Shown here one piece after another: positions 1-45,568 of a stretch of DNA of 45,568 nucleotides. The position numbers were made by a program, and so were the translations under genes. The notes under the pieces were generated by a model. That model ran no database searches. It had not been told where the DNA came from and saw only the letters and a program-made list of their open reading frames with translations. This DNA comes from a virus. Position 1 is the first letter of the stretch; every line of letters starts with the position of its first letter. The stretch spans positions 1 to 45,568 of IMG/VR virus record IMGVR_UViG_3300032307_000462. One strand, written 5' to 3'.

Positions 1-1071
1 CTCCTAACCCGTCTGCCTTCCCGACCAAGCTCGATAGCACCCTCCCGTTCGGCCGCCTTACCGGCGAGCAGATGGCTCAATTCGGCCTGTCCGACGCCAT
101 GCTCGATCAGTTCGTCGAACACTCCACGATCGGCCACGTCATGTCCGGCGTCGAGTTCGTCAAGAGCGCCGACGACGCAGCCCACGTCGTGGCCGGTATG
201 CGTAAGCGAACCCAGGAACAGATCATCCTCCTTATCACCGACAAGAACGGTCGCCCGATCCAGATCGCCGGCCACCAGATCGGCGGGCCTACCTCGACCG
301 GCTTCAACCCTGGTATTCTGATCGGCACCGCGGCCAGCACTCCTGGCGCAGCTAAGGTCTGGTTCATCCATAACCACCCGTCCGGCAAGTCCAGCTTGTC
401 GCCGGCTGACATTAGCTCTGGTGGAAACATCGAGCGACTGCTCAAGGCTGCCAACCTGGACTACATGGGAACCATGGCTGTCGCCGGCACCCGGTATGCG
501 CAGATGACCCCCAGCGGCAGGATCGAGAGCAACATGGCGATCAAAGCTGCCCCCCGTAAGTTCAAGGTCCCGGTCACGGAGCGCATGTTCTCGTTCCGCG
601 TCAGCCATGACAAGGTATCCCATGGCGATCCGTCGATCGCCATGACCGAAGCCGAACGTATCTTTGGCAAGGATCAGCCTGGCCTCATCCTCCTGGACAA
701 TAGCAACCGCATGGTTGCCACGATCCCCCTGGCTGCCGACGTGCTCCAGGCCATGAAGGCTAAGATCCCCGGAACAGATCAGACCGGCTTCAACCGTTTC
801 GTGTCCGGCATCGACCGGTCTAACCCCGTCAACCTCATGATCTACACGGCTAGCCTGGACCAGGACGTCGCCCGTAAGGTCATTCAGAACATGAGTGGCG
901 TCGCCCAGGCCACCAAGCTCAACGTCCTGGACGCGTTCGGCGCCGGCAGCGTGAGCCGTCAGTCTGACATTCGCCCCTACGGCTCCGACTTCAATGAGTC
1001 TGGATCTGAATACACCCCGGACGGCGGCCAGGCCAGCGAGCCTCAGACCCTCCGCGACGTCGTAGACCAAG
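1..1071 (+). repeat. Terminal homologous copy A of the JAB-repeat segment
   Basis: Bases 1-1071 align in frame with 44495-45568, with one codon of length difference and scattered substitutions, many of them synonymous. The first 52 bases match 44495-44546 exactly and the last 27 match the window's right end exactly. The window therefore starts and ends in the same gene segment. The copies are either two population variants of one locus placed at the two contig ends, or a real tandem duplication. Confidence 0.9.
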
Positions 1072-4000
1072 CGGCTAAAAAAAAAAATGAATTAGAGGTC
1101 GGTGAGGGCGAGCCGGACGCGGATAGCATGGCTGAAGCCATCAAGGCTGAGCCTATCCCGTCGGCTGCCGACATGGCCAAGCTCACCGGCAGACTAGTCC
1201 CGAACCACGACGACGGGCTCCTGGCCTCACAGGGCTTTATCACCAAGCGCGCCAGCCAGGACATGGCCAGGATCATGGAGCGCATCAACAGGCGCTTCCC
1301 GGACGGCTACCCGATCAATGGCTGGGATGATAATGGCAACTATAACCGGGATAAGAAGAAGATCGCCAACCTCCGGCTGCGCTACGAGAGCGACGCGGAC
1401 CCGATCGGGAATTACGAGGCCCAGGACTATGTCTTTATCGACGCCGTTTTTGAGGACGGAACGACGCACATGATCGCCAGCCTGGATCTGATGCGCGGTT
1501 ACGCCGGCACCCCGGAGGTTACCAAGGTCGGCATGAGCCACGTTAACACGGATCTGCAAAAGCTTGGCCTGGGCAGCATCCTGTATGTCGAAGGCGGCGA
1601 GCGCTTGCGACGCATGGGGCAGCGCTATATCACCGGATCAGTCATTAACCCGGCTGCGGTAGCTACGCGCGTCAAAGCCTTCCCGGCCGGCAGCACCGAG
1701 CTCCTGGCTGTCCCCGGATCGTCCAGCATGAGCCAGAAAGAAATGGCCGACGCTGCGCTAAAGGTCATCAAGGGCGGCCAGGCTGCCTACACCCAGACCA
1801 CCCTGGACCCGGACGTCGCCCTGGAGCCCAGCCAGCCATACAACCAGGCCGGTAGCTATGACATTGTTTTCTATGACGCAGCCATCAAGGGGTTTAACTC
1901 CGAGCGAAACGGCAACCCGGACAAGGACCGGTCCGGGCGAGCCATCGTCGGCAAGGATGGCGTAACCTTCACCGGATATAAGCACCTTAAGGACGCAAGC
2001 CTCACCCTGGATGAATGGAACGATCTCATGGACGAGCTCAAGTCCGACGGCGAAGCTCGCATCAGCATGCCGGACGGGGACATTGTGATCACATCCGTAA
2101 GCAAGCGATCGGACCGCGTCCGGGAAGATGGCGCCGAAGCCGACCAGGACGACCAGCTCACCGAGCCGGCCATGCCTTACGACGACGGCGAGAACACCCG
2201 CATCCCTGGTAGCGAGCGCGACGAGCGCCTCAAGAGACTTGAGGAAAAGGCCCGCGAGGTTGAGCAGCGCGGTTACATGCACGTCGGCCACGGCTGGTAT
2301 TCCGGATCTAAGGACGAGAAGCCGGCAGCCTGGAAGAAGAAGGCCAAGCTGTGGACCCTGTCGAGCGACGGCCGGATCGTTTTCAGCAAGACCGTAGACA
2401 AGCTTGAGGTAGCTTACATTAACAGCAAAAAGCGCGAGCTTGCTGATGTTGAGTCCAAGGCGCGAGCCGCGGAACCGAGCCCCGAACGCAACAACTACGA
2501 ACGCCGGGCGTATCAGCTTACTAAGAAGATAGACGAGCTTGAGGGTGAGATGAAAAGCAACAGCTCCCCCATTACGCACATGAGGCAGACGTCCGGTTTT
2601 TCCGAAACCGAGTATCCCGGCAGAAACCCGCAAGGCCGCGTCGAGATCACCGACGACGGCGTCCTGGTCAGCATCATCAGTTTCCGTGGCAAGATGGAGT
2701 CCGTGGCCGATGAACGGATGGTCATGCAGGATCTGCGCGAGGCGGTCGCGAAGGATCTTGGCGTATCGCCGGACAAGGTCCGTGTCATTGACATGGACGG
2801 CGGCACGGTCGAGACGGACACCCCGGAGGACGGCAGCGCCAGGGAGCCGGCAGCCGCGTATGACGACGGCGAGAACCAGGCTATTCCTGGCGGTGGCCGC
2901 CAGGCCTGGCTGAAGAAACAGGCTGAGCTGCGCTCCAAGAACGAGCTGCCCGGCGCTAAGCGGATCCAATGGTGGACCGACGTCGGCCATAAGCACGGCA
3001 AGAAGAACCGCGAGAAGGTCTGGCTCTGGGCTTACGATAAGCAGGGCAAGCTCCAGGTGATCAACGCCGAGGAGCTTAGGTCCAAGCTGCAGGATGAGTA
3101 TGACATGATCGGCGCCAATGTTACTCACCTTGATTGGGAGGAGTCTTTCGCCCCAGGCCTCCTGGCCGGCGCCGCGCATGGCCGGATCGACGCGACCGAA
3201 GATGTGGTTCGCGTCTCCCTGGCCGGCCGGATCAACGACCCGACGTTCCGGGAACAGGTCAAGCAGGAGCTGGCCGAATACATCGGCGTCGAGGTCGATC
3301 GCGTCAAGGGCTACGACTTTACCGGCGACGGCATGCCGGAGCTGTTCAACCGAACCCAAGCCGGTAGCGACACGGAGATCAAGCAGCTAGCCCAGGATCT
3401 TAAGGGCATGGACGTCGAACAAGCCAAGGCCTACTTCAAGAAAAACCCGGATAAGGTGATACTCTTGTCGCAGCCCGGTCTGCCTCCCCACCTGGAGAAG
3501 ATCATCAAGGCCATGCGCGAGATCGGCTATAACGACGCCAAGGCATACCTGGAAGCTCACCCGCTTGGCAAGCTACTGCTCGCTAACGGTCGCATTGTGT
3601 TAGTCCGCGACGCGTCCGAGATCCCCGGTCTAAGCCCGCTTGAGGCTGCCGCTGGAGGGTTCAATGGCTTGGTGTTTCCAACTAATCGCGAAGCCACCTA
3701 TTTCGTCGGCGACGGGATCTCCCAGGCTGAGCTCGACGCGCTTATCAAGCATGAGGTCGGCGTCCACATGGGCATCGGCAAGGACACCGACCTGGTTAAT
3801 GACCTGTATGCTGAGCTTTACAGGCTGATCGAAAACGGTGCCAGCGACGACATAGACCGGATGATGGCCGGAGATGCCGTGATGGATGCGTTCAGCGTAG
3901 TGGCCGGGCAATACGGACGCGGGATCTTAAAGAAGATAAATGAAGGGGGTCTATCCCCCAAGGAGCGCTACACCGATGCCCGCATAACGAGCATACTTAA

Positions 4001-7000
4001 GGAGAAAGGCTTACCCCAGGATGAGATCGATAACTTCCTGCGCATGTTCCACGAGGAAACCCTTGGCTATCTGATGAACGTCATGGCCAGAAGGGACGCC
4101 GCAGCTAACGCCCCAAAGGAGGGCTTGTTTGCGATCATCATCCGGTGGATCAAGGCCACGATCATTCGCATGGCCTACGCCGGCAGCGAAGGCGGGGAGC
4201 GCGCCCGCGCCGGGAAGGCTATGCGTGGCATCGGCTACGCCAGCTTGATGGCCGACAGCCTGGGAATGAAGAAACTGTCCCAGCTCCTGGAGATCCGGCC
4301 GGGCGACGTCCGGGCGATCGCCCAGGGCTATGTCCGGGCATACGCTTCCGGCAAGGAGGTCGGCATGCCGGATACCAGGAAGGATACGGTTGAGGGTGAC
4401 ACCCAGGAGGCAGCCAAGGACGCCCAAGAAGCGCGCGTCCAGGGTCGCGCCAGCGATCCGGTTACCGACGCTGCCACGTTTAGTAACACCCTGCTGTTCT
4501 CCTGGCGCAAGCCAGGTCAGCCAGCGCCTACCAACGATAAGCTGTCCGGAACCAAGGAGGCTGCTGCCAGGTTTGAGGATGCGCCCAAGGGCCCCGTCGC
4601 CGGCGCCAATGAAAAAGAAGAAAACCTAAGCTACCCGCCGTCGTCTGCCCAGGAGGAGGTTGGTCATGCCAAGTGGGTAGAGCGCAAGCATCCGGAACAA
4701 AGCGAGTTTTCTGTCATTACCCACAAGAGTGGAGTTATCTCGCTTAGCCAGGCGCTTAATCCTACCGGCCCTACTAGAGACTCATCTCTGCTGGTTGCCG
4801 ATGAAAACGGAAACCCGATCGAGTTTCCGCGCGTGTCGTCTATCGCTGCGATCAGCGGCCAGCTGGGAGATCTAGCTGCTCAGCTCGACATCCCGGTGCA
4901 CATCCCGCAAGGCCGACAGGGGACCGGCAAGGATGGTAAGTTTAATGAGATCAAGGGTAAGGATGAGGACGTTACGGACGACGGCCAGATGCTGTCTGGC
5001 TTTGGTCTTGAACACGCGTCCTGGAAGCATGGATGGGAAATGGATGCTCTCGCTGGTAAGGGTGGCTGGGAGGTCGGTAAGCATGTTGAGGCTATTCAGA
5101 AAATAATGGAAGATGCTAGCGACATTGGCGTCATGTATAACGCAGACGGGTCCGTAGGTAAGGTCATGGTTTTCTCACAAAAAACCCAGATGCGCGTAGT
5201 CTTGCAGCGCGTAGGCGGTGACAGCCCGTTCTTCTATGTGGTGACGGCCATGAAGCTTGGTAACGCCGTCAGAAAAGGTAAGCCTGTAAACGCTGAAAAA
5301 CTTAACGTCCCGATCGACAGAGAGACGTTCATGAGAGGCTTGGTTAGCTTCAGCCCGGAGGGAGCTCCGGCTCCGCGAGCGTTTTACTCTGAAGCTAAAA
5401 ACGAAAACCAGACTAACAGCGAAAACCAGGCTAACGAACCTGGCGCCGACTACGGCCAGACCGAGCAGACCGGCGAGCAGCAAGCTGCTGCTGAAGCCGA
5501 GACGCTGGAGAAGCTGCGCGAGGTCCAAGGCAACGGACCCGCTGGCCCCAAGCTGTTCAACGCGATCCCGCCCACCCCGCCGCCTCCTGCGCCGACCACG
5601 CCCACCAGCCCGGCGCCGGCTCCGCTTAACCCGCCGGCGACGAACGACGACATGGCGCGCCGGGTAGGCGACGTCCTGCGCGGCCGATACTTTGACGGCA
5701 TCAGCACCAAGGCGCACCAGAACGCTGAGCGCACCGGCAGCGCAGCTGTCCGGGCTATTGCCGACATTATCCACACCCGTCCTGGGACGGAGAGCCCGTC
5801 CTCTGAGCGCGATCTGCCCAAGGCGATCATGAGCGCGCGCATCAAGTATCAGAACAAGTTTAACCAGATCATGCGCCCGCTGCGCGATCAGCTCAGTCGC
5901 ATGACCAGCGAGCAGCGCGAGCAGTTCTACCGCGAGCTCGTCGATCAGATCACCGGCCGGACCAACATCCAGCCTGGCGTCGCCGGCCACGCGGCAACGC
6001 AGCTGATCGATCTGCTCAAGGAGTTGCACGACTACCGGACCGCAGCCGGCGAGAACCTGGGCCAGGTCCAGCAATACTTCCCGGCGGTCTACAACTCCGA
6101 GCTGATCACGGCCAACCGGACCGCCTTCATCGCGGACGCGACCAGGGCCTACGAGATCGAGCTGTCCCAGGACCCGACCCTTACCCCCCAGGAGATCCAG
6201 GCCAAGGCCGCCGCAGCCGCGGCTGCCCTGTATCGGACCCATACCAGGGGCATGGGCGACGCCGAATGGGCGAGCATCTTCACCAGCGGCCGGGATAACG
6301 CCACGGAGAACAGCTCCAAGGAGCGCGTGTTCGGCCGCCAGGCGCAGGGCATCATGGCCAAGTGGCAGACGCCGGACCCGTTCTATGTGATCAGCCGTTA
6401 CATCGGCAGCTCCGTCAAGCGAGCTGAGCTCGTCCGGCGCTTCGGCCCGGAGGGTGAGAAGTGGGAAGCCATGGCCAACGCCATGGAAACCGACGGCGTC
6501 CCGATCGAGACGATCAACGAGATGGGGCAGCTGGTGAAGCTGGCCGCCGGCCTGGGCGTCACGCCCCTGGATAACTCCGAGCGCATGTTCATGGATACGG
6601 TCAACCTATACACCGCCGCCGCGGCCATGGGTAAGAGCGCCATGAACAACCTGTTTGAGCCTTCGGCCATGGGCATCCGCGGATCTACCGTCGGCAACCC
6701 GTTCCGGACGGTCAGCGCCTACGCCGAAACCTGGGCGCGGTTCGTCCGTAACCTGGTGCAGATGCTGCCGGTCCTGGGCGAGCACGTCGGCCCGACGTTC
6801 TGGCAGGAATACGGCGAGCACATCGGATCTATCCATAACTCCCTGGACGACGCCTGGATGAGCATGCACGCCATGGAGCACGGCATGGAGGAGTCCAACC
6901 CGGCCATGCGCTGGATCACGAACCGGGTCTACCAGGCCAACCTCATGGAGTCTACGGAGAACGCCAAGCTCCAGGCCTCCCATGCCCTGGGTCACGCCTA

Positions 7001-7949
7001 CATCCTGGACCACGCCAGCATGCTGGACGGCAGCCACTACATCTCGCGGCTGCTTAAGTTCGACACGCGCAGCACGGCCGAGGAAGCGCTGCTTGAGCTT
7101 GGCATCCCCAAGTCCAAGCAAGACGCCTTCGCAGCCTGGTGCGCCACGCTTAAGCAGACCAAGGACCGGGGCGCTCGCATGGCCATGCTTACGGACGGAT
7201 CTGAAATGGCCCGCCTATACGAGGAAGCCCAGATCCGGTTCAGCCATCAGTCAGCTGTCCGTGCTAACCGGGCTCACAAGCCGGTGTTCCAGGATGCTGT
7301 CCTGGGTCGCCTGGCCTTGCAGCTCATGAGCTTCAGCTACTCCTACTTCTCCGAGGTAACCGATCGCATGTATCGCATGGCAAGGCGCGCGATCACGACG
7401 AACAACATGCCGGCGATCCAGCGCATCAACATGATGCTCCCCCTCATGCTGTCTCCTCTGACCGTCGTGGCCATGGGCGCCTTGTTTGAAAGCAAGGACT
7501 ACCTGTTCCCGACGGAGTCGTCCGAGAAGCGCAAGAAAGACCATTGGATCTACAAGCTGTTCAACGCCTCCTCGTTCGCCGGCATGTTCGGGCCCAAGCT
7601 CGAAATGGCTACCAAGTATATCGCGCGCGATCAGCCGCCTGGCGGCATCGCCGGTCAGACCGCGGTCGGCGTCGGCCGTGTTGGCAAGAAGGCTATCGAG
7701 CTCGCCATGGACGATACCAAGACGCCGGCCCAGAAGGAGGCTGCCTTGAAACAGGCTGCCGCCAGGGCTGCCGTCGCTCCGATCAAGGGCGCTGCCGTGA
7801 TCGCAGGATCCGCGCTGCACCCGGCCGCCGGCGCCCTGGCTGTTGCAGCCACTAACGATACCGGCTGGTCTAATGCGCTGCAGGACGTCGAAACCCCCAA
7901 AAAGGGGACGGATCCCAAGCCGGAAGGATTGCCAAAATACAGGAGGTAA
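3..7949 (+). CDS. Giant polyvalent virion protein, 3' part (RadC/JAB, GNAT-like, zincin-like, helical C-terminus)
   Basis: This frame is open from the left edge, with no stop before the first ATG at 72, so the gene continues upstream. Its 5' part is at 41560-45568. Domains in order, by position: a RadC/JAB-like domain with HNHPSG at 369-386 followed by SxxD; its partner segment (610-960); an 11-A run (1077-1087); a GNAT-like segment whose QKLGLGSILY (1557-1586) resembles an acetyl-CoA loop; two copies of an unknown module beginning EPAxxYDDGEN (2163 and 2847); a zincin-like HEVGVH at 3750-3767; a segment starting FGLEHASWKHG at 5001 that recalls phage BECR-type nucleases; a Pro-rich linker (5560-5640); and a long helical region to 7500 with a hydrophobic stretch near 7430-7495. 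This architecture fits the large polyvalent proteins that phages eject with their DNA, which is family knowledge. Ejection and protection of incoming DNA are inferred from the internal virion protein genes just upstream. JAB is the surest domain; GNAT, zincin and BECR are motif-level calls. Confidence 0.85.
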   Translation, partial: PNPSAFPTKLDSTLPFGRLTGEQMAQFGLSDAMLDQFVEHSTIGHVMSGVEFVKSADDAAHVVAGMRKRTQEQIILLITDKNGRPIQIAGHQIGGPTSTGFNPGILIGTAASTPGAAKVWFIHNHPSGKSSLSPADISSGGNIERLLKAANLDYMGTMAVAGTRYAQMTPSGRIESNMAIKAAPRKFKVPVTERMFSFRVSHDKVSHGDPSIAMTEAERIFGKDQPGLILLDNSNRMVATIPLAADVLQAMKAKIPGTDQTGFNRFVSGIDRSNPVNLMIYTASLDQDVARKVIQNMSGVAQATKLNVLDAFGAGSVSRQSDIRPYGSDFNESGSEYTPDGGQASEPQTLRDVVDQAAKKKNELEVGEGEPDADSMAEAIKAEPIPSAADMAKLTGRLVPNHDDGLLASQGFITKRASQDMARIMERINRRFPDGYPINGWDDNGNYNRDKKKIANLRLRYESDADPIGNYEAQDYVFIDAVFEDGTTHMIASLDLMRGYAGTPEVTKVGMSHVNTDLQKLGLGSILYVEGGERLRRMGQRYITGSVINPAAVATRVKAFPAGSTELLAVPGSSSMSQKEMADAALKVIKGGQAAYTQTTLDPDVALEPSQPYNQAGSYDIVFYDAAIKGFNSERNGNPDKDRSGRAIVGKDGVTFTGYKHLKDASLTLDEWNDLMDELKSDGEARISMPDGDIVITSVSKRSDRVREDGAEADQDDQLTEPAMPYDDGENTRIPGSERDERLKRLEEKAREVEQRGYMHVGHGWYSGSKDEKPAAWKKKAKLWTLSSDGRIVFSKTVDKLEVAYINSKKRELADVESKARAAEPSPERNNYERRAYQLTKKIDELEGEMKSNSSPITHMRQTSGFSETEYPGRNPQGRVEITDDGVLVSIISFRGKMESVADERMVMQDLREAVAKDLGVSPDKVRVIDMDGGTVETDTPEDGSAREPAAAYDDGENQAIPGGGRQAWLKKQAELRSKNELPGAKRIQWWTDVGHKHGKKNREKVWLWAYDKQGKLQVINAEELRSKLQDEYDMIGANVTHLDWEESFAPGLLAGAAHGRIDATEDVVRVSLAGRINDPTFREQVKQELAEYIGVEVDRVKGYDFTGDGMPELFNRTQAGSDTEIKQLAQDLKGMDVEQAKAYFKKNPDKVILLSQPGLPPHLEKIIKAMREIGYNDAKAYLEAHPLGKLLLANGRIVLVRDASEIPGLSPLEAAAGGFNGLVFPTNREATYFVGDGISQAELDALIKHEVGVHMGIGKDTDLVNDLYAELYRLIENGASDDIDRMMAGDAVMDAFSVVAGQYGRGILKKINEGGLSPKERYTDARITSILKEKGLPQDEIDNFLRMFHEETLGYLMNVMARRDAAANAPKEGLFAIIIRWIKATIIRMAYAGSEGGERARAGKAMRGIGYASLMADSLGMKKLSQLLEIRPGDVRAIAQGYVRAYASGKEVGMPDTRKDTVEGDTQEAAKDAQEARVQGRASDPVTDAATFSNTLLFSWRKPGQPAPTNDKLSGTKEAAARFEDAPKGPVAGANEKEENLSYPPSSAQEEVGHAKWVERKHPEQSEFSVITHKSGVISLSQALNPTGPTRDSSLLVADENGNPIEFPRVSSIAAISGQLGDLAAQLDIPVHIPQGRQGTGKDGKFNEIKGKDEDVTDDGQMLSGFGLEHASWKHGWEMDALAGKGGWEVGKHVEAIQKIMEDASDIGVMYNADGSVGKVMVFSQKTQMRVVLQRVGGDSPFFYVVTAMKLGNAVRKGKPVNAEKLNVPIDRETFMRGLVSFSPEGAPAPRAFYSEAKNENQTNSENQANEPGADYGQTEQTGEQQAAAEAETLEKLREVQGNGPAGPKLFNAIPPTPPPPAPTTPTSPAPAPLNPPATNDDMARRVGDVLRGRYFDGISTKAHQNAERTGSAAVRAIADIIHTRPGTESPSSERDLPKAIMSARIKYQNKFNQIMRPLRDQLSRMTSEQREQFYRELVDQITGRTNIQPGVAGHAATQLIDLLKELHDYRTAAGENLGQVQQYFPAVYNSELITANRTAFIADATRAYEIELSQDPTLTPQEIQAKAAAAAAALYRTHTRGMGDAEWASIFTSGRDNATENSSKERVFGRQAQGIMAKWQTPDPFYVISRYIGSSVKRAELVRRFGPEGEKWEAMANAMETDGVPIETINEMGQLVKLAAGLGVTPLDNSERMFMDTVNLYTAAAAMGKSAMNNLFEPSAMGIRGSTVGNPFRTVSAYAETWARFVRNLVQMLPVLGEHVGPTFWQEYGEHIGSIHNSLDDAWMSMHAMEHGMEESNPAMRWITNRVYQANLMESTENAKLQASHALGHAYILDHASMLDGSHYISRLLKFDTRSTAEEALLELGIPKSKQDAFAAWCATLKQTKDRGARMAMLTDGSEMARLYEEAQIRFSHQSAVRANRAHKPVFQDAVLGRLALQLMSFSYSYFSEVTDRMYRMARRAITTNNMPAIQRINMMLPLMLSPLTVVAMGALFESKDYLFPTESSEKRKKDHWIYKLFNASSFAGMFGPKLEMATKYIARDQPPGGIAGQTAVGVGRVGKKAIELAMDDTKTPAQKEAALKQAAARAAVAPIKGAAVIAGSALHPAAGALAVAATNDTGWSNALQDVETPKKGTDPKPEGLPKYRR
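1077..1087 (+). other. A11 homopolymer in the giant gene, possible slippage site
   Basis: A run of 11 A residues in a GC-rich coding region encodes Lys-Lys-Lys-Asn just after the RDVVDQ end of the JAB repeat. One extra A gives an immediate TGA; one missing A gives ATG AAT TAG. Polymerase slippage is known on A runs of this length, and either slip would end the protein right after the JAB repeats. Whether slippage happens here is inference. Confidence 0.5.
2163..3350 (+). repeat. Diverged tandem duplication inside the giant gene
   Basis: Two consecutive modules start with EPAMPYDDGEN (2163) and EPAAAYDDGEN (2847), both followed by an IPG and a basic helix. Both end in a similar segment, GRVEITDDGVLVSI in the first and GRIDATEDVVRVSL in the second, then a helix and a VDxVKG/VDRVKV-type strand. 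The similarity is clear in protein and weak in DNA, so the duplication is old. I do not recognise the module. Confidence 0.6.
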
Positions 7950-7962
7950 TAAGATCTAAACC

Positions 7963-8103
7963 ATGATCTCCTATCTCATCACGTTCACCCTGGGTCTGGC
8001 TGCCGGTTTCGTCGGTGGGTTGTTGGTGTTCCGGAAGCACCGGGCTACCATCGACCAGGCTGAGGCCAAGGCTAAGTCCATCGCAGACGAGTTCAAAAAT
8101 TGA
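7963..8103 (+). CDS. Small single-TM membrane protein (46 aa)
   Basis: The protein has an N-terminal membrane segment (residues 3-22, LITFTLGLAAGFVGGLLVF) followed by a short charged helix, so it is probably inserted N-out with a cytoplasmic tail or the reverse. It begins 13 bases after the stop of the giant gene. An AGGAGG lies in the end of that gene (7941-7946), but 16 bases from the ATG, so it is a poor Shine-Dalgarno match. Its TGA overlaps the TTG start of the next gene, suggesting coupled translation. Context suggests a lysis-cluster component such as a small spanin-like or accessory membrane protein, but the sequence does not prove this. Confidence 0.6.
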   Translation: MISYLITFTLGLAAGFVGGLLVFRKHRATIDQAEAKAKSIADEFKN

Positions 8104-8801
8104 GATCAGCCCTTGTCATATGCTTAGCCCTCGCAGGGTGCAGCTCGCAGCCGGCCCCGGTCATAGAACCGTCAACGCCGGCCGCGCAGCTTGGAACCCT
8201 GGAAGCCAAGCAGGACAAGATCGACGGCCGCGTAGCCGGTGCCCTGGTGGCGATCGAGACAAACGCCGACAAGCCTCCGGTCGTAAGGGCTGAGGCCAGG
8301 CTAGCTCAATCATACTTACCGCCGGCGAGCGAGGGCGACAAGGCCTTCGCGCTGGCCAGGGCTGCAGCTCAAGACGAGAAGGCATACCGCGACCAGACGG
8401 AGTTCGCGCGCAAGTTCCTGGATCAACTAAACAAGGATTGGAAGAAGGCCGACGACATGGCCAAGACCAATGCCGTCGAGATCAAGCGCCTGGCTGACGA
8501 GAACAAGCAGCTGCGCGCCGACCTGGTGCGCGTCGAGAAGGAGGGCGATCACCGGATCTGGACCCTCACCGGCGCTGCGCTGGTGGTCCTGGGCGGCGTC
8601 GCCATGGCCTTCGCCGGCATCAAGAAGGGCGCGCCCCTGCTAGTGGCCGGGCTGTTCGCGGGCAGCGTCCCTTACATAACCGAGAGCGAATGGTTCACCT
8701 GGATCGCTGCGTCTACCGGCCTGGTCATGGCCGGGCTGCTGATCTGGGTGGCCTACGACAAGGCACGAGACACCGTCAATGAGCCCAATCCCCCCGCCTA
8801 G
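8100..8801 (+). CDS. Lipoprotein with coiled coil and C-terminal membrane segments (233 aa)
   Basis: The start is a TTG overlapping the upstream TGA; no ATG fits. Residues 1-14 form a short signal peptide ending in a lipobox LAGC, with Cys14 the predicted lipidated residue. Residues 85-145 are charged and helical, probably a coiled coil (LADENKQLRADLVRVEKEG). Three hydrophobic stretches follow, near residues 152-173, 177-193 and 199-220. A lipid-anchored N-terminus combined with several C-terminal membrane segments is unusual. It sits between two small membrane-protein genes and overlaps the next gene by 23 bases, so an envelope or lysis function (spanin-like or holin-associated) is plausible. 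I do not recognise the family. Confidence 0.75.
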   Translation: MRSALVICLALAGCSSQPAPVIEPSTPAAQLGTLEAKQDKIDGRVAGALVAIETNADKPPVVRAEARLAQSYLPPASEGDKAFALARAAAQDEKAYRDQTEFARKFLDQLNKDWKKADDMAKTNAVEIKRLADENKQLRADLVRVEKEGDHRIWTLTGAALVVLGGVAMAFAGIKKGAPLLVAGLFAGSVPYITESEWFTWIAASTGLVMAGLLIWVAYDKARDTVNEPNPPA

Positions 8802-9114
8802 TCCAGAGGATGTGAACCAGGTCCTGGCTGACGGCGCCAAGGCGTCGGCCCTGGGCGCCGGCGCTATGACAGCCAGGCTTTTGCTCAGCACGGAGAAGCA
8901 GAGCCTGGGCTACGTTGCGCGCCGGATCATGGTCGCTTGCATCGTCGGGTTCTTCGCGTCGATGGTAGTCCGCGAATACATACACAGCATCTCTCTGCAG
9001 TTCGCAGCCGTGGGCGCGCTCTCTTACGCAGCGCCGGAGGTCTGTGACTACGTTCTCCAATATATCCGTGCCAAAGGCCAAGCCCAAGTCAGCTCCGCAA
9101 GGCGCAAGCGTTGA
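8779..9114 (+). CDS. Putative holin-like membrane protein (111 aa)
   Basis: Two hydrophobic segments are visible, roughly residues 46-66 (RRIMVACIVGFFASMVV) and 72-95, between a polar N-terminus and a short basic C-terminus ending ARRKR. Size, two membrane passes and a basic tail match class II holins, and the gene sits in a run of four membrane-protein genes right after the virion genes. The start ATG lies inside the end of the preceding gene. The matching cell-wall enzyme is not adjacent but on the minus strand at 23057-23494. Holin function is inferred from topology and context only. Confidence 0.6.
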   Translation: MSPIPPPSPEDVNQVLADGAKASALGAGAMTARLLLSTEKQSLGYVARRIMVACIVGFFASMVVREYIHSISLQFAAVGALSYAAPEVCDYVLQYIRAKGQAQVSSARRKR

Positions 9115-23494: not shown

Positions 23495-23815
23495 GGTCGG
23501 CAGCGTGACGCTGCGCCGATCGACGTGCAAGGACAAAGCCGGATCGGCATACCCCCCTCCTGCCGGTGCGCTCGCTCTATAGGCCTCCCGCGCGCGCGTC
23601 TATAGGTGCACCCACCTACCCCTCCTCCCTGCCTATGGCTCACCCTCCCTCCTCCCCTCACCCATGCCTCCTCCCTCCCCGATCCCCGGCCTACGCCTCC
23701 GCTTTTCTACTCAAAATTCCATCTCCCCCCGCGCGGAAAAATTTGCGGATCGCAGAAAGATGGTCCTACAAAGTGTTCCCTTGCCGGAGTTTATGCGCGC
23801 GCACAAGATCCGCGC
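23495..23815. promoter_or_regulatory. Divergent promoter region with TCTATAGG repeats and C-rich tract
   Basis: This 321-base region lies between divergent genes (lysozyme-like leftward, tail fibre rightward) and holds no confident gene. TCTATAGG occurs at 23576 and 23599, 23 bases apart, about two helical turns, with a CG-rich spacer. From about 23609 to 23695 the plus strand is an almost pure C/T tract with several CCC/CTCC runs, so the minus strand is G-rich and could form quadruplex-like structure. A less GC-rich stretch from about 23700 to 23760 may hold the fibre promoter, but no clear -35/-10 pair is visible. Confidence 0.45.
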
Positions 23816-25963
23816 ATGTCCCAGCCGCCCGATCCCTATCAGCGCCAATACAATTTTACGGATCACTCTATCCAGCTGCCGAACGCGCCGCAGCCGGGCA
23901 ACAAGCTCGACCTTGAGCTCAACGAAGTCCGCGAGAGCTTGAACCATACGATCTCGCGCCTCAACGAGATCCAGCGCGACGACGGAAAGCTGCGCGACTC
24001 TGCTGTTCCGGACGATCATCTGATCCCCGGTCCGGTCGGGCCAATGGGCCCCCAGGGGATCCAAGGAATTCAAGGCGTGCCTGGCGTGCCGGGCATTAAC
24101 GGAATTGACGGCCAGCAGGGCATCCAAGGGATCCAAGGGATCCAAGGCCCCGTCGGCCCCCAAGGCCCCCAAGGCGATAAATACGCATGCACGTCAACGA
24201 CCAGCCTAGCGCTGTCGAACGGCACCAAGACATTCACGACGCAGACCGGCCTGGCGTGGACGAGCCAGCAGGATGTGACGATCGTCTACGACGCTGCGCA
24301 TCACATGCACGGAACGGTGACCACTTACGACGCGCAGACCGGCGCGATGGTCGTCGATGTTTCGCAGCACACCGGCAACGGTGGCCCTTACAGCACCTGG
24401 ACGATCAACATCGAAGGCGCGATCGGCGCGCAAGGACCCGTCGGGCCAGCCGGCCAGCAAGGCGAGCCGGGGATCCAGGGCCCCCAGGGTATCCAAGGCC
24501 CGGCAGGACCTGGTTTGGTTGACGGACTCACGATCTCAGAAGCTGCTGCGACGTATAAAACGATCGCTTCAGCTGACGCTGCGCTCGCCGGCAAGGCTGC
24601 GCTCGCGCACACGCACCAGATCGCTGACGTTTCCGGCCTGGCGAGCTCGCTTTCCGGTAAAGCCAGCAGCGTTCACTCCCATGCGATGGCCGATGTGTCC
24701 GGTTTGACCGGAACGATCAGCAGCATGTCGTCAGACATTAACACCAGGCTCAAGAAAGTGACCGATGCGTCGTTCTCGATGCTCTACAACGCCGGTTATC
24801 TGTCGATCCCGGCCGGTTCTGATCTGTTCGGGCAGCGAGCTCAATACACGGTTCCGCTGCAAGCGCTAGGAACGCGCTCCTGGATGGTCCAGCGCCCGGA
24901 GTTCCTGGGCAAATGGATCTTCAAGAACGTGATGAACGCGGAAAACAAGCGCCAGACCAAGGGCCCGCGCTCGTTCATCGAGTTCACGCACACCGATTTC
25001 GGCATTATCGCGCACGGCGATCTGGAATACGAGGACGCCGGCATCGTTATCGACAGCCAATGCGATTGGATCGAGCTTACGGACGCAGCCGGGACGCCCT
25101 GGTCCGGTTATTACAGCCCCAGGCAGACGGTTGCGGACGGATCTGGTGGATACAGCACGTTGACCGGATCTCCTGGTGGCGGCACCTGTTGGCTTCCTAA
25201 CGGATACGTCCTTTCCATGGGCGAGACTGTTCCTCTTAGCTTTGAATGGAACGACACCGAAGGCCACACCGGCAATTTCCAATACGGTTACACGGAAATC
25301 GGCATGGTCGTCGCGAATGGCCAGGGCGGCACCATTACTTACAGCCAGAACACGGTTATCACGGCGACTGCCGGCCAGGTGTTCCACTCTGATCCTGGTC
25401 AATGCTCCGGTTCGCTGGATCTCGCGTTCGACGGCGTCAGCTACTACACGACCAGCGACACGCGCCAGAGCGCGCCGCCGGCAGATCAGTATATCCGCAG
25501 CGACTCCGGTATTCTGGAAGTCTACCTCTGCGGATCTAACTACCAGGTCGGCAGCTGGTCCGGTGATTTCTACACCGACGGCACATGCACCGGCGAGTCG
25601 TTCTCCGGAACGACCGAATACGTCCCTTACGGCACCTATCTGACGAATTGCGACGGATACAACCACTACTCCAACGGCTCCGGCGGCTACTATTCCGAGA
25701 GCGACGGCAGCGGCGGCGGCGGTTGCAGCGGCGACACCGGCAACACGTCGTCCGGCGATCTCTACGTCTACATCAGCGAGATCGACCAGAGCGTGATCGG
25801 CGGCAGCTACTACGCGACAGAATACTACAACTACGACTGCACAACCTCCTGGTCCTCGTCTGACAGCTGGTATTCCTACGGAACCGAGCTGTATAACGAC
25901 GGCACGGGCAACTATTATTACGCCGACGGTTCCGGCGGCTATTACTACCAATACAACTACTGA
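23816..25963 (+). CDS. Tail fibre with collagen-like repeats and Tyr/Gly-rich C-terminus (715 aa)
   Basis: ATG 23816 starts the protein; the frame extends to 23606 but that part is Pro-rich noise from the C/T tract. The N-terminus ([19 protein letters not shown] followed by [27 protein letters not shown]) is the common podovirus fibre attachment head that docks to the tail. Gly-X-Y collagen-like segments follow at residues 72-122 and about 204-234, which should form triple helices. The C-terminal 170 residues are rich in Tyr, Gly, Ser and Asp with repeated DGSGGYY-type turns and several Cys; this is the likely receptor-binding tip. Trimer formation and receptor binding are inferred. Confidence 0.85.
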
Positions 25964-26191: not shown

Positions 26192-27762
26192 TGAGCGACC
26201 AGGACCAGGACGACATTCAGCGCCAGATCAAGGCAGCTGAGCGTCTGCTGCGCCTCAAGAAGGCCAGGTCCGGTCTGATCGAGTTCACCAAGTTTACGCT
26301 GCCGGATCCGGAGGCGCCGGAGGATCACACCCAATCGCGCTACCAGGACGCGCTGCATCACCGGGTGATCGCGGCCGCCCTGGAGGAGAGCGAAGCCGGG
26401 CGCATGCCCAGGCTGATCATCACGATGCCTCCGCGCCACGGTAAGTCAGAGCTCGCGTCCAGGCGCTTCCCGGCCTGGTTCCTGGGCAAGGACCCCTACC
26501 GGCAGCTCATCTTTGCCACCTATAACGACGACTTTGCCCAGGACTTTGGACGGTCTGTGCGCGAAACCATGGGCTCAGCTGTGTTCCAACAGGTGTTCCC
26601 TGGCTGCAAACTGCGCACCGGCAGCAAGGCATCGGACAAGTTCCAGACGGACGAGGGCGGCCTGGCGGTCTTTGTCGGCCGTGGCGGGGGCCTTACCGGC
26701 CGCGGCGCCGATCTGCTGATCATCGACGACCCGATCAAGGACCGCGAGGAGGCCAACTCCAAGAACCTCCGGGATAAGCTCTGGTCCTGGTTCACGGAAG
26801 TGGCCATGACCCGTCTTATGCCGGCCGGCCGGGTGGTCATTATCATGACGCGCTGGCATGAGGACGATCTGATCGGCCGGCTGACCGATCCGTCCAACCC
26901 CTGCTACAACGCCGAAGAAGCCAAGAATTGGAAGATCCTGGCGCTGCCGGCCATCGCCGGCGAGGACGACCCCATGAAGCGCAAGCCTGGCGAGGCCCTA
27001 TGGCCGGAGCGCTTCCCGATCCCGGCCCTGGAGCAGATCAAGCGCCTTAACCCCACCGGCTTCTCAGCTCTATACCAGGGAGCTCCGACGCCGGAGGACG
27101 GCGACTACTTTAAGCGCGATTGGCTGCAGACCTACGACTCTCCTAGCGCGATCCCGGCGAACCTCCGGAAGTATGGCGCGTCCGACCACGCCGTCTCGAT
27201 CGCCCAGGACGCGGACAAGACGTGCATGGGCTGCGTCGGCATCGACGAGGACGACAACATCTGGGTCCTGCCGGATCTATTCTGGCGCCGGGCGCAGACC
27301 GACGTCGTCTGTGACGGCATGCTAGATCAGTTCCGGCGCAACGCCCCGCTGCTCTGGTGGGCTGAGAAGGGCCACATCTCCAAGGCGATCGGCCCGTTCC
27401 TGCGCAAGCGCATGCAAGAGGAACGGATCTATTGCGCGATCGACGAGGTGACGCCGTCCAAGGACAAGCAGACGCGCGCCCAGGCGATCCGCGGCCGTAT
27501 GGCCATGGGCAAGGTGTTCTTCCCCAAGTTCGCGAGCTGGTGGCCGGACGCGCAGCTGGAGCTGCTGAAGTTCCCGGCTGCACGGCACGACGACTTTGTC
27601 GATTGGCTTGCGCACATCGGCATGGGCTTGAACCTCCAGGTCGGCGCGAGCTCGCCGTCCAAGGCAGACAAGGGACCGGCAACCGGCACCCTGGCCTGGG
27701 TCAAGCACTCCTCCAAGATGAGGGAGTATGCCGAAAACAGGTTGCGCAATTTCTGGTCATAA
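26191..27762 (+). CDS. terL: Terminase large subunit (523 aa)
   Basis: ATPase motor: MPPRHGKSE with Lys85 (Walker A) and LLIIDDP with Asp179-Asp180 (Walker B), followed by a coupling motif IIMTRWHEDDL. Nuclease part: the acidic strand around MGCVGIDEDDNIWVL and a final Asp in DFVDWLAHI give the RNase H-like site of the Terminase_6C type. It cuts concatemeric DNA and drives it into the prohead through the portal. I use ATG 26191; a TTG three bases earlier is in frame. The portal gene follows 13 bases later, the usual order. Confidence 0.95.
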   Translation: MSDQDQDDIQRQIKAAERLLRLKKARSGLIEFTKFTLPDPEAPEDHTQSRYQDALHHRVIAAALEESEAGRMPRLIITMPPRHGKSELASRRFPAWFLGKDPYRQLIFATYNDDFAQDFGRSVRETMGSAVFQQVFPGCKLRTGSKASDKFQTDEGGLAVFVGRGGGLTGRGADLLIIDDPIKDREEANSKNLRDKLWSWFTEVAMTRLMPAGRVVIIMTRWHEDDLIGRLTDPSNPCYNAEEAKNWKILALPAIAGEDDPMKRKPGEALWPERFPIPALEQIKRLNPTGFSALYQGAPTPEDGDYFKRDWLQTYDSPSAIPANLRKYGASDHAVSIAQDADKTCMGCVGIDEDDNIWVLPDLFWRRAQTDVVCDGMLDQFRRNAPLLWWAEKGHISKAIGPFLRKRMQEERIYCAIDEVTPSKDKQTRAQAIRGRMAMGKVFFPKFASWWPDAQLELLKFPAARHDDFVDWLAHIGMGLNLQVGASSPSKADKGPATGTLAWVKHSSKMREYAENRLRNFWS

Positions 27763-27775
27763 CGACGATTTTTTT

Positions 27776-31019: not shown

Positions 31020-32102
31020 ATGCCCTCCACGTTCTCCTCCCTCGACCACATCGTCGCGTCGGCCCTCGACTTCCACGTCAAGAGCGACGCGTTCGCCCAG
31101 ACCATCCAGGAAAAGCCCCTGCTCGCGTTCATGAACAAGCGCAAGCAGACCTTCCCCGGCGGTAAGGGTGACATTACCATCCCGATCACCTTCCACGACA
31201 CCCTCCCTGGCATCCACGGCTACGAGGGCGACGAACAGGTGTCCTACGACAACCCCGGCAACACGAAGCGCGCGTCCTTCCCCTGGAAGGAAATCCACGC
31301 TGGCATCAAGGTCACGCTGACCGAGCTCAAGATCGACGGTATCTCCGTCTCTGACAGCACGACCGGCGAAAGCACCTCCAAGCACAGCAACCGCGACGTG
31401 ACCGTCCTCACCAACATCCTCAAGGCCAAGCTCGACGACATGTCCGAAGGCTGGGCCCGCGGTATGAACCAGATGTTCTGGAAGGACGGCTCCCAGGACG
31501 CCAAGGTCGTCGCCGGCTTGATGAATTTCCTCAAGCCCGGCCTCGCCATCACCGGCGGCGCCACGGATCTGAACGCCACCGGCACCACCGGCGGTATCTC
31601 CCGTGCGACCAACGCCCTCTGGCGCAACCGTTCGGACAAGTTCACCTACGAAATCGGCAAGACGAACATCATCGACGCCCTCCGCAAGGAAGTGCGCCAG
31701 CTGAAGCGCTACGGCGGCAAGCCGAACGCGATCTTCTGCGGTTCCGGCGCCCTGGAGAAGCTTGAGAAGGAGATCCACTCCAAGGGTCTTTACACTCAGA
31801 CCGGCTTCACCGGCTCCAACACCGTCGGCATGGGCACCACCAGCCTCCTGGGCATCGGTGAGTTCATCTACGACCCGACCCTGGACGACCTCCCCCAGGC
31901 TGACGGCACCGGCAACCAGACGGACTACTGCTACATCATCGACTCCGATGCCCTGCAGCTCTACGTCATGGACGGCGAAGAAAACAAGACCCACAACCCG
32001 GCTCGCCCCGAAGATAAGTATGTTATCTACAAGGCCATGACCTGGACCGGTGGTCTTGTGACCAAGAAGCTCAACAGCTCCGGCGTCTACAAGTTCGCCT
32101 AA
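31020..32102 (+). CDS. Major capsid protein (360 aa)
   Basis: Length, position after the scaffold and the strongly biased C-ending codons of a highly expressed gene all support the major capsid protein. FPGGKGDITIPITFHDT, the GYEGDEQVSYDN strand and the C-terminal YVIYKAMTWTGGLVTKKL resemble HK97-fold capsid proteins of podoviruses. It assembles the icosahedral shell around the scaffold. The ATG follows TAACCCACGAACCAGATACTACC, AC-rich with no Shine-Dalgarno, so even the most expressed gene uses this leader. A strong terminator follows. Confidence 0.85.
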   Translation: MPSTFSSLDHIVASALDFHVKSDAFAQTIQEKPLLAFMNKRKQTFPGGKGDITIPITFHDTLPGIHGYEGDEQVSYDNPGNTKRASFPWKEIHAGIKVTLTELKIDGISVSDSTTGESTSKHSNRDVTVLTNILKAKLDDMSEGWARGMNQMFWKDGSQDAKVVAGLMNFLKPGLAITGGATDLNATGTTGGISRATNALWRNRSDKFTYEIGKTNIIDALRKEVRQLKRYGGKPNAIFCGSGALEKLEKEIHSKGLYTQTGFTGSNTVGMGTTSLLGIGEFIYDPTLDDLPQADGTGNQTDYCYIIDSDALQLYVMDGEENKTHNPARPEDKYVIYKAMTWTGGLVTKKLNSSGVYKFA

Positions 32103-39149: not shown

Positions 39150-39152
39150 GCC

Positions 39153-41492: not shown

Positions 41493-41559
41493 CCCCCAAA
41501 AAGTAGACCTAAATCCGATTGCGAAGATCGGTCTTACGCCAGATTTTTAAGACACCAAC

Positions 41560-44500
41560 ATGGCTCTAAACATCAATCCGAATTCGGGAAAAGGATCGAC
41601 GAACCAGCGCGCTCTGCCTCCTGTTCCTCCCGTAGCGCCGACTCCGGAGTTATCTACTCCAGGTGGCGAGCCTGTTGCCGGCCAGATCGGAGCTCTCGCG
41701 CAGATCGTTGCTGCAGCGCAGCGAGGCACAGCAGCCTCTAATCAATTCGCGATCCCCACGTTTGGTTCGCCTGGTGTTTCTCAAGCTGCGCTGCCGAGCC
41801 CGATCGCGCCGCAGCAGCCTGGCATCCCTGCCGGTGTTCCTTCTTCTCTCGCCGGACTGTTCGGCGACGCCGGCGCTCAAGCTGCGCAGCCAACCGGTGG
41901 TCTTTCCGATTACGGACTTGCACCGGCTCCGGAGCTCCAGGGCGCCATGGGGCCTGGAGCTGAAACCGGTGCTATGGCCATGGAGCCCGAAGCTCCTATG
42001 CCCGGCATGCCTGTCCAGCCGGCTGGCCAGCAGGGCTCTGCTCCGATCACCGGAGCCACTACCATTTTCGATCTCGTCTCCCGCGGTCTTGGCGTAAACC
42101 AGGCGCCCCAGGCGCCCCAGGCGCCCCAGGCTCCGGCCATGGCTCAGCCTGGCATGCCGGCGCCGCGCGTCCCGCAGCTGCCGCCGATGCCTCAGCTGCC
42201 GACGCCCACCGGTCCGCAGATCTTGCCTCAGTATGCCGGCGCCGACTCTCGCGCTAACTTTGCACCTGGCGGCACCCCTCAGCTCATGCCGGAGGCCCAG
42301 GCCCGCGTTGACCTGGCCAATGCCCCTACGTTTGACTCCTGGGCAAACCAGCTCCAGCAGATGGGGATCGCCAGCAACCCGGCTGCCGGCACCTTTGGCA
42401 CCGGCGCTCGCCAGCCCCAGCTGCCGCCCATGCCCCAGCTCCCGACCCCGTCGGGTATCCCTTCCGGTCTTGCAGCACCCCAGGCGGCGCCCCAGGCTTC
42501 CCCTTATGTCAACCCGCAAGCCCCCCAGGGTGCTGTTCAAGCACCCGCCGGACCTCAAGCTCCGCGCGGCGGTCAAGGCGCAGCAGCTCCGGCTCAGCAA
42601 GTCCAAGCCCAAGCCCAGCCTTCTGTCGCTCCTGCGCCCGCTGCTGGACCGGCTCCTGCGCCGGCGGTAGACCCCGTCGTCGCCGATCTGCAGCGCCAGA
42701 TCGCAGAGCTGCGCGCGCGTATCCCGGCCGCCCCGGCCCCGGCCGCCCCCGCGCCTCAGCAGCCCCCGGCAGCCCAGGCTGATCCCGGCCGCCCGTATGA
42801 TCCGTCTCGCGTCGAACCCCAGGAGGTTCCGGAGTCGGCCCCCGTCGAGCAGCCCCAGGAGGTTCCCGAAGAAGCCCCGGAGCTTGAGCCCGCGTTCACC
42901 GGCTCTCCTCTTACGGAAGCCAAGCCGGCCGATCCGATCGTCTCTAACGGTGGTATTTCCATCGGCGGCAAGAGCTTTAAGAACGCCAAGGCGATCCCGG
43001 CCAGCATGCTGCAGAAGATCGGCGTCAGCCAGGCCATCCTTTCTCAGTTCGTCGAACACGCCCAGGTCGGCGTCCTTAAGTGGTTCAAGCCGACGATCGA
43101 CAACGAAGCCGACGCGGCTGCGCTGTCCTATGAGTTCCTGCGTAACCAGGCACAGGAGAGCATGCTGGTCATTCTTGCCGACAAGAACGGCAAGCCAATC
43201 AGCGTCCTGCGGCACACCCTAGGAGGCATGGGTCAAACCTCATTCCACGCCAACATCATGGCTGGAGTGGCCGCCGGAACCCCTGGCTGCCGTAAGGTAT
43301 ATGTCGTCCATAACCACCCGTCCGGGACCATGAAGTTTTCGGAGGCCGATATGCTGGCTGCGGTCAACATCCAGAAGCTACTTGAAGGAGTCGGCGTCGA
43401 GTTTTCCGGCAGCCTTGTCGTTGGCGACGCCCAGAACGATCCTGGCACTCGCGGCGAAGGCGCTTACGGTCCTCGTTATATCTTCCACCCTGGCAATAAG
43501 GATACCGTAAAATTCCTCGAAACCTACGCCAAGGACGAGGCATTGTCTAAGCCGATCACCATGGCCGAGGACACCCCTGGCGGCGATCTGACCGCCGGCT
43601 ACCCGGTCGCGCTCACCGAACGCGTGTTTAAGATCCGCGGTAACGCCCTGGCGCCCGCTATTGCCAACGGGACTGATGCGGTCCGTTCTATTGTTCCGCT
43701 TCTGGCCCGTAAGCCTGGCATCGCTTTCCTTGATAAGGGAAACCGGGTTATGGCCGTTCTTCCGCTTAGCCTTCAAGAGATGGCCGCACTTGCTACGGTT
43801 ACCAACAAGCGCGGAACCATGGGCATCGCTCAGAGCAACACGCAGCGACTTCCGAGGACCACGAGCTCGACGATCGACGTCGAGTCCACCGCCCAGGACA
43901 ACCCTCCTCTTGCCAGGATCCTAACCGTCCTGGAACGTGCTAATGCTGACGGTATCATTATCAGCGTAGGCGATGCCAGCAACGACAGCCAGGAAGCAGT
44001 CAATGCGGTGATCAACGTCAAGACGATGGCTGGAAGATCTAAGATCGGCGTCTTGGACACGATTAATAATGAGCGCAACTTTGGTCCTTATTTCGGTCCC
44101 AAAGCTGACACGCTTGGCGGCACCAACGCTACTCCTAAGCTTCCGACCGGTGAGCGCCTGGGCTTCCGCGAGGGCGACGAGGAGTATGATCCGGCCCCGA
44201 TCGAGAACGAAGATCTGGCCCAGGACTACCCGGAAGTCATGGCTAACCGCAAGGCGACGCAGCGCGCCGACGGCGGCCAGGATGGCGGCGCCGGCATCGA
44301 AGGCATCGTCCGCAACGGCCTGGAAGAAGGTAACGTCAGCGAGACTAACCCGGAAGATCCGAACGCCGGCGCAGAGTTCGCCCGCCAGGAACGCGAAGCT
44401 GGCGCCAGGGTCAACCAGGACAGCGGCCTGGAGAACGCCACGCCGGCCGAGCCTATCATTAAGAAAACCCGCAAGCCTCGCGCTAAGCCGGCTGCTCCTA

Positions 44501-45568
44501 ACCCGTCTGCCTTCCCGACCAAGCTCGATAGCACCCTCCCGTTCGGTCGCCTTACCGGTGATCAGATGGCTCAGTTCGGTCTGTCCGACGCCATGCTCGA
44601 TCAGTTCGTCGAGCACTCCACGACCGGCCACGTCATGTCCGGCGTCGAGTTCGTCAAGAGCGCCGAGGACGCAGCCCACGTCGTGGCTGGTCTGCGCAAG
44701 CGCCCCCAGGAACAGGTGATCCTGCTGATCACGGACAAGAACGGCCGTCCAATCCAGATCGCCGAGCACATGCTCTCCCAGCCAGCGTCTTGCGGCTTCA
44801 ACCCTGGTATCCTTATCGGCACCGCGGCCAGCACCCCTGGCGCAGCCAAGATCTGGTTCATCCATAACCACCCGTCCGGTAAGCCTACCCTGTCGCCGGC
44901 TGACATTAGCGCCGGGGGCAACATCCAGAGGCTGACCGAAGCTGCCAACCTTAAGTATGAAGGGACGATGGCTATCGCCGGAACCCGGTTCGCCCAGATG
45001 ACCCCGTCCGGACGGATCGAAGGCAACATGGCGATCAAGGCTGCGCCCCGTAAGTTCAAGGTTCCGATCACCGAACGCATGTTTGCGTTCCGCGTCAGCC
45101 AGGACGCCAAGCAGATCAGCGACCCGGCCATCGCCATGGCCGAAGCCGAGCGTATCTTTGGCCAAACTCAGCCTGGCCTTATGCTCCTGGATAACAGCAA
45201 CCGCCTGGTTGCCACAATCCCCCTGGCTGCCGACGTGCTCCAGGCCATGAAGGCCAAGATCCCAGGCACGGACCAGACCGGCTTCAACCGGTATGTGGCC
45301 GGCATCGACCGATCTAACCCGGTCAACGCCATGATCTATACGGCCGACGTAGATGCGGGCGTTGCCCGCAAGATCATCCAGAACATCAGCGGTATGGCTG
45401 GTGCCACCAAGATCAACGTCCTGGACGCGTTCGGCGTCGGCGGTATCAGCCGTCAATCCGACATTCGCACCTACGGCGCCGACTTCAATGAGTCGGCTGC
45501 CGAATACGATCCGGAAGGCGGCCAGCCCCAGGGCGAACCCAAGACCCTCCGCGACGTCGTAGACCAAG
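41560..45568 (+). CDS. Giant polyvalent virion protein, 5' part (two RadC/JAB-like repeats)
   Basis: ATG 41560 follows TAAGACACCAAC and opens a frame that runs to the window edge without a stop. Residues 1-460 are a Pro/Ala/Gln-rich low-complexity arm. Then come two RadC/JAB-like repeats: HNHPSG with first His at residue 584 and SEAD after it, and HNHPSG at residue 1102 with SPAD. The His-x-His and Ser-x-x-Asp pattern is that of JAMM/RadC folds. Each JAB unit is preceded by a GLSDAMLDQFVEH-like helix and followed by a partner segment, so the repeat unit is about 340 residues. The gene continues at window positions 1-7949. The protein is probably carried in the virion; JAB activity, if any, would be a zinc-dependent hydrolase of unknown substrate. 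Confidence 0.88.
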   Translation, partial: MALNINPNSGKGSTNQRALPPVPPVAPTPELSTPGGEPVAGQIGALAQIVAAAQRGTAASNQFAIPTFGSPGVSQAALPSPIAPQQPGIPAGVPSSLAGLFGDAGAQAAQPTGGLSDYGLAPAPELQGAMGPGAETGAMAMEPEAPMPGMPVQPAGQQGSAPITGATTIFDLVSRGLGVNQAPQAPQAPQAPAMAQPGMPAPRVPQLPPMPQLPTPTGPQILPQYAGADSRANFAPGGTPQLMPEAQARVDLANAPTFDSWANQLQQMGIASNPAAGTFGTGARQPQLPPMPQLPTPSGIPSGLAAPQAAPQASPYVNPQAPQGAVQAPAGPQAPRGGQGAAAPAQQVQAQAQPSVAPAPAAGPAPAPAVDPVVADLQRQIAELRARIPAAPAPAAPAPQQPPAAQADPGRPYDPSRVEPQEVPESAPVEQPQEVPEEAPELEPAFTGSPLTEAKPADPIVSNGGISIGGKSFKNAKAIPASMLQKIGVSQAILSQFVEHAQVGVLKWFKPTIDNEADAAALSYEFLRNQAQESMLVILADKNGKPISVLRHTLGGMGQTSFHANIMAGVAAGTPGCRKVYVVHNHPSGTMKFSEADMLAAVNIQKLLEGVGVEFSGSLVVGDAQNDPGTRGEGAYGPRYIFHPGNKDTVKFLETYAKDEALSKPITMAEDTPGGDLTAGYPVALTERVFKIRGNALAPAIANGTDAVRSIVPLLARKPGIAFLDKGNRVMAVLPLSLQEMAALATVTNKRGTMGIAQSNTQRLPRTTSSTIDVESTAQDNPPLARILTVLERANADGIIISVGDASNDSQEAVNAVINVKTMAGRSKIGVLDTINNERNFGPYFGPKADTLGGTNATPKLPTGERLGFREGDEEYDPAPIENEDLAQDYPEVMANRKATQRADGGQDGGAGIEGIVRNGLEEGNVSETNPEDPNAGAEFARQEREAGARVNQDSGLENATPAEPIIKKTRKPRAKPAAPNPSAFPTKLDSTLPFGRLTGDQMAQFGLSDAMLDQFVEHSTTGHVMSGVEFVKSAEDAAHVVAGLRKRPQEQVILLITDKNGRPIQIAEHMLSQPASCGFNPGILIGTAASTPGAAKIWFIHNHPSGKPTLSPADISAGGNIQRLTEAANLKYEGTMAIAGTRFAQMTPSGRIEGNMAIKAAPRKFKVPITERMFAFRVSQDAKQISDPAIAMAEAERIFGQTQPGLMLLDNSNRLVATIPLAADVLQAMKAKIPGTDQTGFNRYVAGIDRSNPVNAMIYTADVDAGVARKIIQNISGMAGATKINVLDAFGVGGISRQSDIRTYGADFNESAAEYDPEGGQPQGEPKTLRDVVDQ
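42100..42132 (+). repeat. Short tandem repeat coding for Gln-Ala-Pro
   Basis: The 9-base unit CAGGCGCCC is repeated three times from 42100 and followed by a diverged fourth copy, encoding NQAPQAPQAPQAPQAP in the low-complexity arm of the giant protein. Such repeats change length easily by slippage. Confidence 0.8.
44495..45568 (+). repeat. Terminal homologous copy B of the JAB-repeat segment
   Basis: This segment is the partner of copy A at 1-1071. It contains the second JAB repeat of the 5' part and ends exactly at the sequence that precedes the A11 run in copy A. Joining 45568 to 1072 keeps the reading frame, and so does joining 45568 to 1. Confidence 0.9.

Follow-up and report, generated by a model that had tools for sequence, protein, structure and literature searches.

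Polyvalent proteins of phages and conjugative elements were described in 2017 (J Bacteriol 2017;199:e00245-17, PMC5512222). For their RadC domains an action on nucleic acids or nucleotides was proposed, and in the authors' view the groove for a ubiquitin tail is probably absent from RadC-type JAB domains (PMC5512222). In metagenome assembly, strain variation breaks or mis-closes circular viral contigs, and a contig is taken as circular when its ends are identical or nearly so (Microbiome 2024;12:187, PMC11443906). Here we describe a viral contig of 45,568 nucleotides (IMG/VR record IMGVR_UViG_3300032307_000462, positions 1 to 45,568; the whole stretch is called the window) that is cut inside a very long gene with RadC-type JAB domains and carries imperfect copies of one segment at its two ends. 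We conclude with high confidence that the window contains two alleles of a single-copy JAB segment, JAB2, on a near-complete circular map of ~44.5 kb; they probably come from one phage population and were probably made different by recombination.

The giant gene and the copies at the contig ends

The window encodes the head and packaging proteins listed below and, as a tailed-phage genome, also a helicase and a Sak4-like protein. The best identities of the terminase large subunit (TerL) are 52% to Microcystis phage Mae-Yong1326-1 and 51% to Rhizobium phage RHph_N65. Two relatives recur in the text, G002 (IMG/VR 3300005758_000229, 45,103 bases), which contains the locus L005, and G008, which contains the locus L011.

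1..1071, + strand: copy B, JAB2 segment, putative allele at the contig start; residues 1-356 of frame 3-7949; HNHPSG catalytic-type motif at 369-386; PF04002
1..52, + strand: left edge, identical to 44495-44546; five bases private to copies A and B among near relatives
1045..1071, + strand: right edge, identical to 45542-45568; L005 has the same bases
1072..7949, + strand: giant gene, downstream part to the stop; HEVGVH at 3750-3767; weak C-terminal resemblance to virion structural proteins of Pseudomonas phage KPP25
26188-27762: terminase large subunit (TerL)
27728-29896: portal protein
31020-32102: major head protein
41560..44494, + strand: giant gene, upstream part from the ATG; low-complexity Pro/Ala/Gln-rich N-terminus, then JAB1 (HNHPSG at 43309)
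44495..45568, + strand: copy A, JAB2 segment, putative allele at the contig end; HNHPSG at 44863; PF04002; grouped with G002/L005 in the tree

A reading made from the sequence alone had placed both contig ends inside one giant gene, and the open frames agree with it: 3-7949 is free of stops and 41560-45567 continues off the contig end. It had also taken the two ends for diverged copies of the same segment, which the alignment bears out. Positions 1-1071 (copy B) and 44495-45568 (copy A, 1,074 bases) form a single alignment in direct orientation that extends to both contig ends, with 901 of 1076 aligned positions identical (84% at the DNA level) and 82% protein identity over 356-357 residues (E = 0). 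The flanks outside the copies have no meaningful similarity, neither 44294-44494 compared with 45368-45568 nor 1072-1271 compared with 1-200, and a search of the whole record, which consists of the window as its one contig, found no copy beyond A and B. The many silent changes reported earlier are reflected in a dS of 0.47 against a dN of 0.12 between A and B (dN/dS 0.25); for A and L005, dN/dS is 0.20. These two comparisons give no sign of positive selection on JAB2 as a whole, and by their substitution pattern both JAB2 alleles look like working, constrained domains.

At their outer edges the copies share exact runs of 52 bases on the left and 27 on the right, as had been noted, and no exact match between A and B is longer than 52 bases. 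Given 84% identity, the chance of such runs at these named places is ~1e-4 and 9e-3, respectively. The accompanying proposal, that exact edges are expected where an assembly graph branches and rejoins, is only partly good, since the two lengths are unequal and off the usual k-mer sizes. To our knowledge neither 52 nor 27 is a common assembler k-mer size; we therefore rejected both as k-mer sizes, and the two runs are not a graph signature by themselves.

Copies A and B and the upstream JAB1 all match the RadC-like JAB family PF04002; in the giant gene product PF04002 scores above its cut-off, and phrog_10276 matches its RadC-type JAB domain. JAB1 is a divergent, older JAB with 25% identity to the end copies, so that “three JAB repeats” would amount to one old and two close copies. 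Besides JAB, no Pfam domain scored above its cut-off in the product, and other domains were not identified with Pfam or PHROGs. The zincin-like metallopeptidase motif HEVGVH was seen by eye, and no Pfam domain was called there. The resemblance of the C-terminal part to KPP25-type virion structural proteins is weak (21–22%). In a further relative, L006 (3300047276_000490), the stretch that follows JAB2 in the window (~1848-2140) is found at 1679-1972 between JAB1 and JAB2; judging by this arrangement, domains have changed places within the giant gene.

The joins 45568->1072, 45568->1 and 44494->1 are all open and give products of 3,628, 3,985 and 3,627 residues, respectively. The earlier statement that both possible circular joins stay in frame is thus correct, but frame conservation across 45568->1 is no independent evidence, because the unit has 1,074 bases and any multiple of three stays in frame. 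Since aligned coding alleles and a tandem of 1,074-base units are both in frame by arithmetic, open joins cannot choose between the readings. The giant gene of G002 encodes 3,690 residues, compared with 3,628 in the window with one copy or 3,985 with both.

Relatives, the circular map and the ancestry of the copies

Viral contigs scanned with copy B yielded ten loci, nine of which are JAB2 itself; in the remaining one, L013, the JAB is only remotely related (26%). In whole-record searches all nine relatives had one JAB2 beside one divergent JAB1, and two JAB2 segments in one record were found in none of the nine. No JAB2 relative was detected in the bacterial genomes or the named phages searched, and the solved structures searched gave no match. 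The DNA alignment of L005 in G002 runs along window positions 39126-45568, through JAB2 and on to 1-1828, with the single copy at 8001-9072. G002 therefore passes the point where the window ends (flank to 44494, JAB2, 1072 onward) with one copy.

The contig ends of G002 map to window positions 25609 and 25612, which are adjacent to each other and ~20 kb from the window's own ends, and across the G002 join the protein of a fibre-like gene continues in frame, as it does in the window. Thus, the window and G002 represent one map, circularly permuted, and they are collinear over the whole length without a step in gene order. G002 and the window have in common the gene order, the circular map, 91% DNA identity in the core and a JAB2 that in G002 is closest to copy A; they differ in that G002 has one JAB2 only and that its contig is cut in the fibre-like gene. 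The gene concerned is tail-fibre-like, carries collagen repeats and lies at 23606-25963. The last 330 bases of G002 (L034:10712-11038) represent a C-terminal repeat of this gene, of which G002 has one copy more than the window (near 25612-25945). Among more distant relatives, exact end overlaps were found in G012 (123 bases), G013 (123 bases) and G018 (127 bases), and G016 has an end overlap of 125 bases with one mismatch, from which it follows that the wider group maps as circles. Several contig ends lie close to JAB2, with G008 ending within the segment, G006 and G001 ending 27 and 961 bases past it, respectively, and G020 slightly upstream; we do not claim a clustering of ends at JAB2, because among ~40 ends in all this is near chance by a rough count.

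A second imperfect end overlap was found in G015 (IMG/VR 3300044641_002729, 49,750 bases). Positions 1-984 and 48767-49750 overlap over 984 bases with 97.5% identity and 25 differences, again to both contig ends; the protein identity in the matched frame is 99.7%, and the first 127 and last 110 bases are exact. The value of 127 corresponds to what we take to be a k-mer size used by SPAdes. G015 thus resembles the window in an imperfect overlap reaching both contig ends, whereas its overlap lies in a primase-like gene and is diverged by only 2.5%, and the phage has no JAB2 match. Its form is as expected if an assembler rounds a circle and re-enters the start on the path of another strain. We regard G015, too, as a circular phage map whose classification as linear is due to ends from different strains.

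Phylogenetically, copy A forms a clade with L005 (support 100/100 in the DNA tree and 100/98 in the protein tree), and a clade of A and B is rejected with p-AU values of 3.4e-14 (DNA) and 0.004 (protein), which rules out a plain recent tandem duplication. The position of B relative to L004 is not settled by the trees. Copy A shares 89% identity with L005 and 82% with B; the closest relative of copy B is L011, with 96% identity over the 133 residues present in that contig. Along the segment, A at 44595-44794 is 96–99% identical to L005 with 66–89% in the flank directly upstream, and B at 201-403 is 96–98% identical to L011 with 82% between 39126-44897 and L011. Such high-identity patches fit recent exchange with other lineages. 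At five positions within 1-52, A and B agree and L005, L004 and L011 all differ, which indicates the same backbone at the left edge. The right 27 bases are uninformative on ancestry and on a shared backbone since L005 has the same bases.

Readings of the end overlap

Two readings had been offered from the sequence alone. The first, alleles of one locus on a genome of about 44.5 kb, is supported by the single copy in nine of nine relatives, by the permuted contig of G002, by the placement of A and B on different branches, by the private bases at the left edge and by G015. We propose that the window follows the circular map of a ~44.5-kb tailed phage for one full turn and a further ~1.07 kb. The contig would start in one JAB2 allele, round the circle, re-enter the locus and end in the allele of another strain. 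In the real genomes the joins would be 44494->1 with the B allele and 45568->1072 with the A allele, and 45568->1 would occur in none; among viral contigs, near records excluded, there was no other contig of this very strain, and a second record with 44494->1 or 45568->1072 was not found. In at least one strain, the interior of the segment would have been replaced through homologous recombination between related phages, with the left flank unchanged. We infer that both alleles come from the population of one sample and that recombination moved the JAB2 alleles. One population seems to carry two JAB2 versions that are as unlike as those of separate phage species. On this reading the overlap mainly reflects how a mixed phage population was assembled, and it is not a third domain copy.

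A divergence between A and B (84% identity) as large as that between named relatives, together with a core common to many relatives at 85–93%, could also arise if the window were a chimera of two co-occurring related species, with a right arm carrying A and a left arm carrying B and what follows it that stem from different phages and were joined somewhere in the conserved core; both arms would then not occur together in any genome. We consider this improbable, because A and B have the five private bases at the left edge in common and because the collinearity with G002 runs through the full length with no step in gene order.

The second reading, a real tandem in which A precedes B and a single gene encodes 3,985 residues and three JAB domains, found no support beyond the open frame across 45568->1, which the unit length explains. 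It would require that the contig was cut exactly between the copies, and a random cut on a 45.6-kb circle would hit the copy boundary to the base about once in thousands. Both copies are intact with a dN/dS of 0.25, L006 demonstrates domain shuffling in the giant gene, and a tandem that joined alleles of two lineages would likewise yield non-sister copies; on the other hand, none of the nine relatives has such an arrangement, and the longest A/B match of 52 bases is too short to stop an assembler with a last k above 52. Exact-pattern scans of viral contigs, near records excluded, gave no match to the A/B junction string, the private left edge or a B-specific string, which is weak evidence. Altogether, a real tandem appears very unlikely, and two alleles of one locus are much better supported. 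A linear genome with diverged direct terminal repeats, to which the position of the repeats at both contig ends would correspond, is a negligible prospect, since a single open gene spans both ends, relatives continue straight through and G002 ends 20 kb away inside another gene, which together rule it out unless G002 was wrongly joined.

For the record itself, two alleles of one locus imply a correction: it is classed as linear and very probably represents a complete circular map of ~44.5 kb on which JAB2 occurs once, rather than one whose giant gene has three JAB domains. Beyond this case, complete phage genomes that escape end-repeat checks can in practice be recognised by ends overlapping at 80–98% identity, with G015 as a second example.

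Comparison with known systems

As in the described assembly cases of strain variation (PMC11443906), diverse strains would here have branched the assembly graph, and circular maps are known by identical or near-identical ends. In contrast to those cases, the end copies of the window differ by 16%, far beyond usual end-repeat checks; this difference exceeds what such checks accept and explains why the record was classed as linear.

The giant gene product has features that fit the polyvalent proteins. Following the literature on this family, the product is predicted to be virion-borne and injected, and its RadC-type JAB domains would act on host nucleic acids or proteins early in infection. More tentatively, and rather doubtfully at present, JAB2 might be an exchange cassette of the injected polyvalent protein, with old allele groups (A with G002; B with G008) kept in the same populations and swapped by recombination. 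Such swapping is what one would expect of a domain confronted with host targets or defences that vary. The giant gene product has in common with the described polyvalent proteins (PMC5512222) its very great length, a RadC-type JAB domain, a zincin-like motif of the HExxH type and a C-terminus that weakly resembles virion structural proteins; it differs from them in combining two RadC domains, JAB1 and JAB2, in one protein.
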